Assembly: GCF_003353065.1 (NCBI RefSeq)
Contig: NZ_CP027806.1
Location: 1,567,353-1,631,352, forward strand
DNA from: Cyclonatronum proteinivorum
GTDB lineage: Bacteria; Bacteroidota; Rhodothermia; Balneolales; Cyclonatronaceae
DNA: 64,000 bases
Direction: 5' to 3'
Part shown: positions 36,375 to 45,903 of the stretch, in pieces
Layout of the letters: each line of letters opens with the position of its first letter
Numbering within the stretch: the stretch's first letter is position 1
Made by a program: the position numbers and the translations under genes
Notes under the pieces: model-generated
Databases searched by the model: none
What the model saw: the letters and a program-made list of their open reading frames with translations, nothing else
What the model was told of the DNA's origin: nothing

Positions 36375-37730
36375 ATGCAAAGACTGGTACACGATCTTGC
36401 CTACGGTCTGGTTAATTGTGGCGGTAAGCGCACGCTCACAGGCATGCTGAGCGGTAGCGGCAACCAGTTCTGTGACTGGACGGCCGCTTACCGGATGTTC
36501 AGCAAGCAGCGCTTTGACCCGCAGGACCTGCTGGATGTCAGCCTGGCGCCTGACAACGCTCCGGTCATTGCCCATATCGACGATACCCTGCTGAAAAAAA
36601 CAGGACGCAAAGTACATGGTGCGAAATGGCAGCGAGACCCGCTTGGACCCGCTTTCCACACCAATTTTATCTGGGCACAGCGCTTTGTACAGGCCAGTAT
36701 CGCCTGCCCGGCCTCTTCGCAGCTTTGTCAGGCACGGAGTATACCGGTGAGTTTTGTCCATGCGCCCATGCCGGTTAAACCCGGCCGTAATGCGGATCAG
36801 CTGCAAAAGGACGCTTACAAAGAAGCTAAAAAGAAAAGCAGGATAAGCTGTGTTGGCGCAAAGCTGGTGGGTTCATTGCGCCAGCGCCTCAACGAGTTGG
36901 GATCAGCCTCACGTCACCTGCTTGTAAGTTTTGATGGGGGGTATACCAATCGCGAAGTAATCCAAAACTTGCCGGCGCATACAACCTTCATCGGCAGGGT
37001 CCGCAAAGACGCTAAAATCTATGATCCACCTGCTGACCAGCCTGACACAGGGCGGCGGCGCTTGTACGGGGAGCCTAAGTTAACTCCGGACCAGATTCGT
37101 ACCAGTGATCAGGTAAGCTGGCAGAAGGTCAAAGCTTTCGCGGCAGGCAAGGAGCACGAGTTTAAATTAAAGGTAGTAGAAAACGTTAAGTGGAAGCCTG
37201 CGGGCGGGCACCAGCTACTCAAGCTTATTATTATCAGTCCTCTTGGGTACCGCTTGGCTAAAGGGGCGAACCTGTTGTAGCGTAAACCCGCCTTTCTGAT
37301 AACCAATGACCTGAAGTTACCGCTGCAAACCCTGCTTCAGGCTTATGTTTGGCGCTGGGAGATTGAAGTCAACTTTCGAGAGCAGAAAACCCTGATGGGC
37401 TGCGGGCAGGCACAGGTGCGCAACCAGCACTCCGCCGAAGGTGTACCTAAGTTTGTTACAGCGGTGTACAGTCTGTTACTGCTTGCCGCTGAACACTGCA
37501 GCAGGCAGAATGATCCACCGGTCCAAATGCTGCAACGTGCCAAGTGGTACCCCGAGAAAGAAAACAGCAGGTGGACGACAGGAGACATTTGTAACCGCTT
37601 CAGGGCGGAATACTACAGCAAAGCCATAGGGGTGAGTTTTGACGGCTTCATGAACAAAAGGTACCGAAAGCAGAACCACCTAAAACTGCTAAACCCGGCT
37701 TTATCGGCCATGATTAGCATCAGAACTTAG
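36375..37730 (+). pseudogene. DDE transposase (IS701/IS4-like) with an in-frame TAG
   Basis: The reading frame is open from just after the TAA at 36291 to TAG 37278, continues in the same frame to TAG 37728, and the two parts make one transposase. HIDDTLLKKTGRKVHGAKW supplies the first Asp, VSFDGGYTNREVIQNLP the second, and after the nonsense codon WRWEIEVNFREQKTLMGCGQAQVR supplies the Glu and YREK-like motif. The TAG stands in GANLL-stop-RKPAFLITND, where a tyrosine codon is likely ancestral. ATG 36375 is the first methionine. Without read-through the copy is inactive. Confidence 0.85.
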
Positions 37731-37741
37731 CCAAACTCCAG

Positions 37742-38815
37742 TCGACCCTTTCAGGGTCGCTGTAATAAAGGGATATGTATTGTTTTCTATTAAGATGTGG
37801 CTATAAACATGTGGTTATAAACATGTGACTCCTTCGGAGTCTCTTTGTTCACAGCTTCTTGCCTGTCAAAAAATTGCAATTTAAGGAATGTGTCTTGATG
37901 CGTTTATTTTAATAATTGTAGGGTTTAAGTTTTCGCAGAGCTCGCATTTAAAAGTGAATGCAATGAACCAGCAACCAATCCCGAAGGGATTGCATGTTTA
38001 TAGAAATGAATCAAGCCCGGCACATACCGACCCCGAAGGGAGTCGCACCCGCGTTGCTGCGGAAATATGTTGTGATTTGGTTCTCAGACAAGCTCATAAT
38101 ATTGAAGCTTGCTTGGGATGGTTCGACCCTTTCAGGGTCGATGTAATGGGGGAGGATATTGTTTTCTATAAACATAAGACTCTTTCAGAGTCTCTTTTAT
38201 TCGAAGCTTCTTGCTTGTTAGCAATTTGCAATTTCAGGAATGTGTCTCGCTGCGTTTATTTCAATATTTCGGGGATTTAGGGCTTCGCAGACCCTGGAAT
38301 TAAGAGCCAATGCAACGAAATGCCCACCAATCCTGAAGGGATTGCATGTTTATAGAAACGAACCCAGTCCCCGGCACAAACCGACCCCGAAGGGTGTCGC
38401 ACCCGCGATGCTGCGGAAATATGTTGTGATTTGGTTCTCAGACAAGCTCATAATATTGAAGCTTGCTTGGGATGGTTCGACCCTTTCAGGGTCGATGTAA
38501 TGGGGGAGGATATTGTTTTCTATAAACATAAGACTCTTTCAGAGTCTCTTTTATTCGAAGCTTCTTGCTTGTTAGCAATTTGCAATTTCAGCATTTTATT
38601 TTAGCTATGTGTCTCGCTGCATTTATGTCAATATTTCGAGGGTTTATGTCTTCGCAGAGCACTCAATTAAGAGTCAATCCAACCAACGGCCCATCAATCC
38701 CGAAGGGATTACATGTTTATAGAAAAAGATTCAGCTCGAGACAAAACGACCCCGAATGGGGTCGCACTGCGTTGCTGTGTGCGATGAACATGCTTTTCAA
38801 GATTGATCTGTGCTT
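37742..38815. repeat. Array of REP-like hairpins in about 350-bp repeat units next to a RAYT gene
   Basis: About 1.07 kb without genes. A roughly 350-bp unit recurs from 37888, 38237 and, less complete, 38604, with a partial unit before 37888. Each unit carries short perfect hairpins: AATCCCGAAGGGATT (37977, 38696; variant at 38329), GACTCTTTCAGAGTC (38178, 38532), GACTCCTTCGGAGTC (37827), TCGACCCTTTCAGGGTCG (37742, 38123, 38477) and GACCCCGAAGGG-type (about 38029, 38383, 38739). The first three classes carry ATAAACAT, in either orientation, exactly 2 nt from the stem. The array ends at the stop codon of the RAYT gene. Confidence 0.88.
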
Positions 38816-38816
38816 G

Positions 38817-39281
38817 TTAATCTTCGATCCATTCAAATAAATACTCATCTTTGTACTCGATCTGATAGCTCGTCAGAAATGCTTTGTATTCATCCTGAAA
38901 TGTTCGCTTGCTGTGATGCTTTTTCTGATTTTGGATGTACGAAATAACCTTGTCCAATGCTGAGTGCGAATAGGAGAAAGCGCCATAGCCTTGCTGCCAC
39001 TGGAATTTGTGTTTGCAAAACTTTTTTTCATTCACAAAAGCGGTGGATGACTTTTTTATCTCCCGTACCAAATCTGAGAGGCAGCAGGATGGTCTCATCC
39101 CGATTAAAAAATGCACGTGATCAGGCATGCCGTTGATTGCCAAAAGCTTTTGCTCTTTATTCGTAATGATCCCGTTGATGTATTTATACAACTCTTCTTC
39201 CCAAGAGGTGTGAATCAGGCTTTGCCGTCCCTTTACAGCGAAAACCACTTGTATGTAGATTTGACTAAATGTGCCTGCCAT
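38817..39281 (-). CDS. REP-associated tyrosine transposase (RAYT; IS200/IS605-like Y1 family)
   Basis: A 154-residue protein. YIQVVFAVKGRQSLI, LLAINGMPDHVHFLIGM (the HUH metal-binding motif, H-V-H), KKSSTAFVNEK and WQQGYGAFSYSHSALDKVISYIQNQKKHH (catalytic Tyr region) match the Y1 transposases of the TnpA-REP type. Family members act on single-stranded DNA at REP hairpins. The palindrome array abuts its 3' end, and paired hairpins lie 43-97 nt upstream of its start. Confidence 0.9.
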   Translation of the reverse strand: MAGTFSQIYIQVVFAVKGRQSLIHTSWEEELYKYINGIITNKEQKLLAINGMPDHVHFLIGMRPSCCLSDLVREIKKSSTAFVNEKKFCKHKFQWQQGYGAFSYSHSALDKVISYIQNQKKHHSKRTFQDEYKAFLTSYQIEYKDEYLFEWIED

Positions 39282-43916: not shown

Positions 43917-44016
43917 AGGTCGATCAAAATATAAAATGAAAGGAAAGCGGAACCGAATGTTTCGCGATGAAAGTCTTTGTCTGCCCGTAAATTAGGGCAG
44001 TATCGCGCAAATACCA

Positions 44017-44826
44017 ACGAAAGAAACGGGTCGCGGCAGGGTGTTAAGTTTGGGCGGTAATGCAGATTCGCGCAGGTTGGTGCACCGTAGGGGCGAACCT
44101 ATGTGTCCGCCCCTACGTGTCCGCCCCGGCTTGGTTAGGATTTCGGATTTCGGAATGCGGGACGGATTGGCGGGGGATTTGATTTACAGGTGTTATGGAG
44201 GCGAAGCGCGCCATAGAATGGAGCGTATTTCGATTTTAGGCTTGCTGGAAAGGAATGGAGATAGGGAATCGAACGTGGTTGCGGGGTAAAGCGCGTGCGA
44301 GCTGCAATAAACATGCAATCCCTTCGGGATTGGTTTCAGAAGCATTTCAAGCGGTGATTTCAAAAATAAGGCAACAGGATTCAAATTGGTTTGGTCATTA
44401 GGGCGTTTGATTTATGGGAAGATTACATTTTGTTGGGTAAACCGGATTTAATATTGCTCCGATGACCCTGAAAGGGTCGAATCCTGGCAGCTGTGTCGGA
44501 AAACGGAATTTGTTGAGGGTGTCGAATTTGACAACCCAATTGAAATTAATTATTTATCCAAATTCAATTCCCCGTGCGACCCTTTCACGGGCGTTTTTTT
44601 TCTTGGGCCGTGTGTATTCTATAAACATGCAATCCCTTCGGGATTGGGCGTGTGTACAGTTTGATAGATAGAAATCGTAAACATGCGGGGTGATTTAATA
44701 CGCTGACGATTGAGTCTGTACAGGCAGGCACTGCCGATTTTGGTGTCTCTTTTTACTAATTCAAAGAGCAAGCTTGTATATTCCCACATACTTCAAAATC
44801 TTAACCGATTAAATCTTAATTACCCC
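44017..44826. other. Intergenic region with dispersed REP-like hairpins
   Basis: No gene. It holds a GTAGGGGCG/CGCCCCTAC palindrome (44087-44095 with 44108-44116), two tagged hairpins AATCCCTTCGGGATT (44317-44331 and 44631-44645), each with ATAAACAT 2 nt upstream (44307-44314, 44621-44628), and one GACCCTGAAAGGGTCGA (44464-44480). The frame upstream of the pfk start (44710-44826) is open but does not look coding. Confidence 0.8.
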
Positions 44827-45903
44827 ATGAAAATTGCAATTAATACCGGTGGTGGTGATGCGCCGGGTCTCAATGCGGTGATTCGCGCGGCAACCAAAGC
44901 TGCCCTGAACCGCGGCTGGGAAGTCCTGGGACTGCGTAACGGCTATGCTTCTCTTTACACGGATAAACCGGCTACGCGCCTCACGCCTGATAGCGTTCGC
45001 GGCATTACGATGCAGGGCGGCACCATTTTGGGGGCAGCCAACCGCGGCAATCCCTTCGAGTTTCCGGTGCTGCAGGCCGATGGTAGCTACACCTACGAAG
45101 ACCGCTCCGATGTTGTGGTCTCAAAACTTGCAGAGCTGGGTGTGGAGGCCGTAGTAGCCATCGGCGGTGACGGTTCTATGCACCTTGCGCACCGTTTGTC
45201 GGAAAAAGGTCTCAAAATTGTGGGCGTGCCTAAAACCATTGATAACGACCTTGTAGGCTGCGATACGACCCTGGGTTTTGATACGGCCTGCACCATTGCG
45301 ACCGAAGCCATCGACCGCATTACGACAACCGCGGAATCCCATCAGCGGGCGATGATTGTGGAGGTGATGGGCCGCTATGCCGGCTGGATTGCGCTGCACG
45401 CGGGGCTGGCGTCTTCGGCAGATGTGATTCTGATTCCGGAAATCCCTTTTACGCTCGAATCTGTATTTAAAAAGCTGGAACAGCTTAAGAAGCAGGGTAA
45501 AGAGCACGCTGTAATTGTCGTAGCGGAAGGAGCCCAGCTCAAAGAAGGCGGTCACTTCATTAAAGGCAAGCAGGTGGGACAGGCTGAGTTGCTCGGCGGC
45601 GCTGCGGCCTTTCTCGAAAAGGAAATCATGAGCCAAACCGGACAGGAAACCCGTTCCGTCATTTTGGGTCATCAGCAGCGGGGCGGCCGACCAAGCACCT
45701 ACGACCGCCTGATTTCACTCCGTTTCGGCGCCGAAGCCATCCGCGCTATTGAGGAAGGCGACTTCAACAAGCTCGTCGTGATGAAAGAAAATCAACTGCG
45801 CCGTATCCCGATCGCCGACGTTGCCGGCAAATTCAAAACCGTCCCGACCGACAGCGACACCATCATGACCGCCCGGGATTTAGGGATTTGCCTGGGAGAC
45901 TAA
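44827..45903 (+). CDS. pfkA: 6-phosphofructokinase
   Basis: 358 residues from ATG 44827, where the family N-terminus KIAINTGGGDAPGLNAVIRA begins. Other motifs are GGDGSMHLAHRL, VPKTIDNDLVGCDTTLGFDTA (catalytic Asp in TIDND) and EVMGRYAGWIAL. GGDGS has the glycine typical of ATP users, while PKTIDND has the lysine typical of PPi users, a mixed pattern known in a separate PFK clade. The phosphoryl donor is therefore best left open. It catalyses the committed step of glycolysis. Confidence 0.93.
   Translation: MKIAINTGGGDAPGLNAVIRAATKAALNRGWEVLGLRNGYASLYTDKPATRLTPDSVRGITMQGGTILGAANRGNPFEFPVLQADGSYTYEDRSDVVVSKLAELGVEAVVAIGGDGSMHLAHRLSEKGLKIVGVPKTIDNDLVGCDTTLGFDTACTIATEAIDRITTTAESHQRAMIVEVMGRYAGWIALHAGLASSADVILIPEIPFTLESVFKKLEQLKKQGKEHAVIVVAEGAQLKEGGHFIKGKQVGQAELLGGAAAFLEKEIMSQTGQETRSVILGHQQRGGRPSTYDRLISLRFGAEAIRAIEEGDFNKLVVMKENQLRRIPIADVAGKFKTVPTDSDTIMTARDLGICLGD

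Follow-up and report, generated by a model that had tools for sequence, protein, structure and literature searches.

Tagged hairpins as putative REP-like elements of subclass 1.2 Y1 transposases in Bacteroidota

Tagged hairpins in an intergenic gap and across the genome

Which enzyme, if any, placed the short hairpins that lie between two divergent genes of Cyclonatronum proteinivorum? The gap concerned spans 910 nt (43917-44826 of the window, that is, of the whole 64,000-nt stretch of DNA that was analysed) between the genes for an aldehyde dehydrogenase and a phosphofructokinase, the ATG at 44827 being assumed to be the start of the latter. Four items had been listed at 44087, 44317, 44464, and 44631 in the first-pass annotation, as a sign that a hairpin family is dispersed in intergenic DNA, and all four fall inside the gap. 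The reading favored here, which we regard as probable, is that the tagged hairpins are non-autonomous REP-like elements of a Y1 (HUH) transposase of subclass 1.2, encoded in this window at 38817-39281. Together they look like a new, non-GTAG REP-like system.

The unit to which these hairpins belong begins with a partner hairpin; about 23 nt with a T run at their end follow, then the ten-letter tag CTATAAACAT, 2-3 nt, and a second hairpin. Its traces in the gap are the following:

44305..44333, plus strand: half unit, made of the tag CAATAAACAT (one mismatch; 44305-44314), GC, and a hairpin (44317-44331)
44464..44478, no strand assigned: hairpin GACCCTGAAAGGGTC, without an adjacent tag
44577..44593, plus strand: apparent decayed partner hairpin (CGACCC..GGGCG), read by eye, 42 nt before the tag at 44619
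44619..44647, plus strand: tagged hairpin, made of the tag CTATAAACAT (44619-44628), GC, and the hairpin AATCCCTTCGGGATT (44631-44645)

The two tagged hairpins first described at 44317 and 44631, with their 2-nt spacing, are real: AATCCCTTCGGGATT is exact at 44317-44331 and 44631-44645, ATAAACAT stands 2 nt ahead of each, and the stretch ATAAACATGCAATCCCTTCGGGATTGG is present in two copies identical over 27 of 27 nt (44307-44333 and 44621-44647). The fuller tag CTATAAACAT is exact at 44619-44628 and carries one mismatch at 44305-44314. No partner hairpin was seen on inspecting the sequence before 44317, and the one at 44577-44593, which the strict partner motif did not score, is a reading by eye; both copies look like decayed remnants. 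When up to two mismatches are allowed, the window has six occurrences of the palindrome AATCCCTTCGGGATT, compared with 0.18 on average in shuffles. A chance origin of tags and hairpins was ruled out by shuffles together with reversed and permuted controls.

The other two listed items are not tagged members of the family. The hairpin at 44464 is perhaps a decayed relative. The palindrome GTAGGGGCG...CGCCCCTAC at 44087-44116, correctly set apart from the start as a separate palindrome, ends in GTAG on one side and in CTAC on the other (shuffle mean 0.00), has its sole full copy within the window here, and is of another kind, outside the tagged-hairpin family; it resembles the REPs with a 'double foot' that have been reported for subclass 2.4.

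The genome holding the window (G000; one contig, 4,294,247 bases) contains 50 exact copies of CTATAAACAT, compared with five of the reversed control, and ATAAACAT followed within 0-8 nt by CCTTCGG occurs 27 times, the reversed control never. All 50 exact tags fall in 17 regions. A perfect hairpin with a stem of at least 5 follows 41 of them, and the tag stays constant while the stems vary (AATCCC, AACTCC, AACCCC, GACTCT, GTCTCT). Compared with random positions drawn from the same 17 regions, 49/50 tags versus 35% of positions lie outside ORFs of at least 200 aa, 40/50 versus 30% outside those of at least 150 aa, and 29/50 (21 being inside) versus 21% outside those of at least 100 aa. The single tag inside an ORF of at least 200 aa, at 2600328, has no hairpin. 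The intergenic dispersal that had been proposed, together with a genome-wide count and a check for intergenic bias as the way to assess it, is thus borne out.

In a second subfamily noticed in the same genome (loci L002-L004, L023-L027, and L238), the partner hairpin is replaced by a GC-rich one, which is built around GCGCGCC..GGCGCGC or a close variant and is preceded by GGGCTGTACGCCC or a variant.

The proposed cognate enzyme and its array

The gene proposed to encode the cognate enzyme lies about 6 kb from the copies at 44317 and 44631, next to an array of units:

38817..39281, minus strand: Y1/HUH transposase, proposed cognate enzyme (P0001), 154 aa, with DHVH, WQ, and YIQNQKKHH
37743..38791, no strand assigned: array of units 3' of the enzyme gene, from tag matches
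37801 (plus), 37815 (plus, one mismatch), 37994 (minus), 38166 (plus), 38346 (minus), 38520 (plus), 38713 (minus): tags of the array, from the tag search
38782-38791, plus strand: decayed tag of the array, by eye, two mismatches
38028..38045, minus strand: partner hairpin CGACCCCGAAGGGAGTCG, belonging to the minus-strand tag 37994-38003, at -42
38124..38140, plus strand: partner hairpin CGACCCTTTCAGGGTCG, belonging to the tag at 38166, at -42

P0001 carries a Y1_Tnp domain (PF01797, E 8e-28) and scores under the NCBIfam cut-off for REP-associated transposases. TnpAY1 subclass 1.2 is marked by DH[IV]H, WQ, and Y---Q--HH, which P0001 has as DHVH, WQ, and YIQNQKKHH. The stretch after HH is about 30 aa long, a C-terminal domain of its own being among the features described for this subclass. 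The low copy number and low within-genome identity by which this subclass is recognized are likewise found in G000, which encodes five Y1 enzymes, the other four being 37-52% identical to P0001. Y---Q--HH is present in 77 of the 80 loci kept as the best of 302 relatives and in 154 of the 167 enzyme loci considered below, DH[VI]H in 66 of the 80 and DH[VILF]H in 154 of the 167, and WQ in 165 of the 167.

On its far side, the tagged array adjoins a region with a DDE_5 (PF13546) transposase (36375-37730), in two ORFs and apparently broken.

Tags, hairpins, and enzymes among relatives

The relatives were sampled as the best 80 of 302 loci, mostly from Bacteroidota by title and partly non-independent (L121, L124, and L125 come from one genome; L090 and L096 share 3.6 kb at 99.4%). 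A search for 8-mers before hairpins to which no tag was supplied, which gives the unbiased tag count, returned as the commonest words TATAAACA (52/80), ATAAACAT (51/80), and CTATAAAC (50/80) in these best 80 of 302. With up to one mismatch, CTATAAACAT followed by a hairpin is found in 71 of the same 80 loci, against 0-9 for 20 permuted tags, and is absent from nine, some of which have little flanking sequence. Most units belong to inverted arrays on the 3' side of the enzyme gene, and some loci have units on its 5' side. The DNA just 3' of the gene is a frequent site: a tag in minus orientation lies near +32 and one in plus orientation near +96, often in repeated form.

Two diverged enzymes, used as queries against 394 genomes of the phylum, matched in 141 and 155 of them (E <= 1e-20), and 167 enzyme loci were analysed (168 were taken; L077 was not located). 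A CTA-anchored tag of some kind was found in 142 of the 167 loci, and one repeated at least twice in 101; 12 control trinucleotides gave 6-35 (35 for TAC, which overlaps CTAC, and 6-20 for the others). The constancy of CTA itself is not independent evidence, since the search was anchored on it. An unanchored search agreed on the tag at many loci and picked out unrelated words at others. In 66 of the 167 loci there is no such repeated tag, so that a REPtron-like arrangement, with repeats flanking the Y1 gene, holds for many enzymes and not for all. Two of the five Y1 enzymes of G000, L030 and L032, are without a repeated CTA tag.

Two Y1 loci have surroundings of other kinds. The enzyme of L032 is flanked by a long palindrome around GCCCATGATTTAAATCATGGGC and, on its opposite side, by a near variant, which makes for a different anatomy, and L031, a diverged Y1 enzyme (37% identical), has its own repeats around it, with some CTATGATATG-like words before GCCCC hairpins.

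A tree was built from 93 of the 101 enzymes with repeated tags, eight being left out for an internal stop (L060, L082, L097, L107, L145, L146, L156, and L158). The tags on it form four groups: CTAYAAR (60 enzymes, class A), CTAYAAT (8, class B), CTACC (16, class C), and other (9). These groups need 12 changes on the tree, compared with a shuffled mean of 31.1 and with none of 200 shuffles as low, and the three named classes alone need four; 53 of the 89 inner branches have less than 80% support. The exceptions are L163, with a class B tag among class A enzymes, and L233 and L230, with class A tags among class C enzymes. G000 itself holds one class A and one class B enzyme, each with its own tag. 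That different enzyme branches go with different tags suggests that each enzyme would read its own tag. Among the residues that are nearly fixed and differ in class C are 9, 44, 66, 82, and 106 (P0001 numbering), which are candidates for reading the tag code. A wider proposal, for which we see the case as evenly balanced, is that the subclass 1.2 enzymes of Bacteroidota run a third ssDNA system, between IS200/IS605 and REPs, in which tag positions 4-8 would be an enzyme-read code and the clade would fix that code (YAAR.., YAAT.., CC...). Since tag and enzyme differ together in these natural pairs, ssDNA recognition can be tested by swaps.

The same loci define the anatomy of the unit. The partner hairpin was scored as a stem of 6 with no more than one mismatch. 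Among 88 loci with repeated tags, 84 have one that begins 38-45 nt 5' of the tag, and this is seen in each of the three tag classes (A 63/64, B 7/8, C 14/16), few hairpins being found at other offsets. Because the partner recurs at this distance across classes, the conserved unit comprises two hairpins with the tag between them. The tag lies mostly 1-3 nt ahead of the longest stem; its positions hold 1.3-2.0 bits, a value that is partly circular as the rows were chosen by tag. A T run precedes it, and conservation is low past the second hairpin. Near the enzyme genes of relatives, pairs of facing units with a single central hairpin in common are frequent. Inward pairs of tags at a distance of 55-72 nt are present in 45 of the 80 loci, against 0-17 for 13 other spacing classes of equal width, and a central hairpin lies between them in 41 of the 45, its stem being exactly CGACCCC in 27 of the 41 and its position most often 23 nt from each tag.

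The hairpin GTACCTACGGCAC, with an A-C mismatch in its stem, was seen to recur about 40 nt before the tag in L062, L063, L222, and L233.

The outer stems show compensatory changes among distinct sequences. For left pair 3, Watson-Crick pairing holds in 32 of 33 (A-T 14, C-G 16, T-A 2), the maximum in 500 shuffles being 22, and for right pair 1 it holds in 21 of 25, with four pair types and a shuffle maximum of 16. Every shuffle is also exceeded by right pair 3 and by left pairs 1, 4, 5, and 6. Right pairs 2, 4, 5, and 6 and left pair 2 do not exceed every shuffle and carry little information. Covarying stems in intergenic locations are also what would be seen if the hairpins acted in RNA, as terminators, mRNA 3' ends, or structured RNA, with the enzyme a bystander. 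Such a role is very improbable: at gathering scores the window has no Rfam match except tRNA, both orientations of the unit occur within one array, the unpaired tag recurs before hairpins with differing stems, and the tag class tracks the enzyme clade.

Distribution of the units and comparison with known systems

Tags and enzymes are also linked at the level of whole genomes. The tag pattern is found in 30 of the 394 genomes and a close enzyme (E <= 1e-62, a cut-off of our choosing) in 11. It is carried by 8 of the 11 genomes with a close enzyme versus 22 of the 383 others (Fisher p = 6e-8, the species not being independent), and by 7 of 10 when G000 is left aside. For at least two matches the counts are 6/11 and 10/383 (p = 7e-7). 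The reversed pattern occurs once each in 10 of the 394 genomes. Two of the eight positives, G194 and G230, have a single match. Three of the 11 enzyme-bearing genomes are without the pattern: G088 and G278 have enzymes that belong to the class B clade, and G389 is an unexplained exception. In G001, a TAA at codon 43 interrupts the enzyme gene. G005 has four pattern matches (L256-L259) and no enzyme match; its tags are perhaps orphans left after loss of the enzyme.

At the level of sites, the ORFs (at least 120 aa) of eight copy neighborhoods in G001 and G005 have only weak matches (27-45%) in the 17 regions of G000 and the window, so that these copies do not occupy the sites used in G000. Copies always at conserved syntenic positions, the pattern that the first-pass annotation had set against its own proposal, were thus not seen. 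Variation in presence, for which it had proposed a test, is illustrated by the cysE-cysK gap, which in G000 is 937 nt long and contains one tagged hairpin. In G001, G002, G003, G006, G011, and G012, the gap measures 88, 146, 38, 6, 22, and 60 nt, respectively, and no tag (up to one mismatch) was found in the cysE-cysK loci examined of these six relatives. The G005 locus ends just past cysK and has two near-tags elsewhere, with no clear hairpin after them, and for G004 there was no cysE match in the locus examined. As the G000 gap also contains GC-rich hairpin repeats, it may have grown in several steps rather than by one insertion. Neither an exact empty site nor a target-site rule emerged. 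For the gap between the aldehyde dehydrogenase and phosphofructokinase genes, phosphofructokinase orthologs of G003 and G004 (70-74%) have no aldehyde dehydrogenase match in the upstream DNA examined, and the upstream DNA of G001 and G002 shows only a 40-41% aldehyde dehydrogenase paralog.

In several arrays the units are spaced about 350-440 nt apart, a regularity that would also follow if the family had spread by tandem duplication, gene conversion, and vertical inheritance with no enzyme action. We consider this highly unlikely, as the tags occupy 17 separate regions, no orthologous flanks were found between the copies of congeners, and the cysE-cysK gaps are short and untagged in six relatives. 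Mobilization in trans by the subclass 1.2 enzyme, in line with the proposal of the first-pass annotation, is likely and would fit the presence in G000 of one such enzyme and of copies elsewhere.

A different source of mobility is suggested by the annotation of P0001, which NCBIfam assigns to the IS200/IS605 family transposases (71.2 bits for a cut-off of 55) and whose sequence relatives with solved structures include the ISHp608 TnpA (E 0.007). The hairpins would then be the ends of an autonomous IS200/IS605 insertion sequence and the scattered copies its remnants. In Lacihabitans CCS-44, identical class A enzymes are indeed found at three loci (L121, L124, and L125) whose surroundings agree at 99.3-100% over 1.3-1.6 kb, and for two of these loci the contig is about 3 kb long; the enzyme gene may be multi-copy there, whether through mobility, through duplication of a larger stretch, or as an effect of the assembly. 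Against an insertion sequence, which is unlikely, stand the single enzyme of G000, with no paralog above 52% identity, versus 50 exact tags, and the location of the units mostly in inverted arrays 3' of the gene. Related enzymes also lack shared surroundings: those of L093 and L096, in a Parvibacillus genome, have 131 of 153 residues in common, and none of the DNA aligns at E 1e-10; the same absence of aligned DNA holds for the pairs L089/L163 and L092/L108. The resemblance to IS200/IS605 elements such as IS608 and ISDra2 lies in the HUH/Y1 core, the hairpins near cleavage sites, and a 5' guide sequence, as far as the consulted passages describe them (PMC8266576); by contrast, no autonomous multi-copy element was seen in G000.

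As REP-like elements of a subclass 1.2 enzyme, the units share several features with the GTAG REPs of TnpAREP (RAYT) and with REPtrons, going by the consulted sections of three papers: they are multi-copy intergenic palindromes with an unpaired 5' tag, they adjoin a Y1 transposase in inverted arrangements, and there is one repeat family per enzyme (PMC6006769, PMC3733652, PMC8266576). They differ from GTAG REPs in having a 10-nt CTA-type tag, not GT[AG]G at the hairpin foot, mostly 2-3 nt off the stem, and a partner hairpin about 40 nt before the tag, and the motifs of the enzyme are those of class 1 rather than class 2. As in REPINs and BIMEs, tagged hairpins are paired in inverted orientation across a short spacer (the inward pairs of 45/80 loci), whereas here the tags face inward and the spacer holds a central hairpin. 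Repeats of a non-GTAG kind, both next to the gene and at other places in the genome, are also described for subclass 2.6 and class 3 enzymes; these are set apart by other enzyme motifs (Y---NP in class 2), and a CnGA foot is reported for class 3 (PMC6006769).

The closest match is TnpAY1 subclass 1.2, characterized in the same account, so far as its pertinent sections go, by DH[IV]H, WQ, and Y---Q--HH, a length of about 150 aa, and occurrence in Bacteroidota (PMC6006769). Table 1 of Quentin et al. 2018 lists no REP for this subclass, and the corresponding text describes its enzymes as generally without IS ends and without REPs (PMC6006769). Unlike the subclass as described in those parts of the paper, tagged repeats lie beside the enzyme genes here, in 71/80 loci (PMC6006769). 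The units recur beside subclass 1.2 genes in many Bacteroidota genomes; enzymes reported to be REP-less thus have tagged repeats of their own, which change with the enzyme, and the tags offer a candidate substrate to a subclass that the 2018 description had left without a known one. Judging mostly by titles and abstracts, no report of this pairing was found among the listed papers on RAYT/REP/REPIN and TnpAREP in the literature collection searched, and, by titles, none of the listed papers that contain the decamer or its complement is about REPs. Bertels and colleagues have reportedly also proposed a RAYT classification.

A mechanism can be sketched by analogy. The E. coli TnpAREP, according to the consulted part of its description, binds the folded REP and cuts at a CT located 5' or 3', GTAG being needed (PMC8266576). 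As the present tag begins with CT and lies 2-3 nt from the hairpin, it may by this analogy be a recognition, and perhaps a cleavage, sequence. The hairpins would fold when the DNA is single-stranded, for example on the lagging-strand template, and the enzyme would bind them and read the tag. The cut by the Y1 tyrosine would then fall close to the tag, perhaps at the CT with which the tag starts, in the manner of TnpAREP, and strand transfer or copying could carry units to other intergenic sites, where they would decay after arrival, as at 44317 and 44631.
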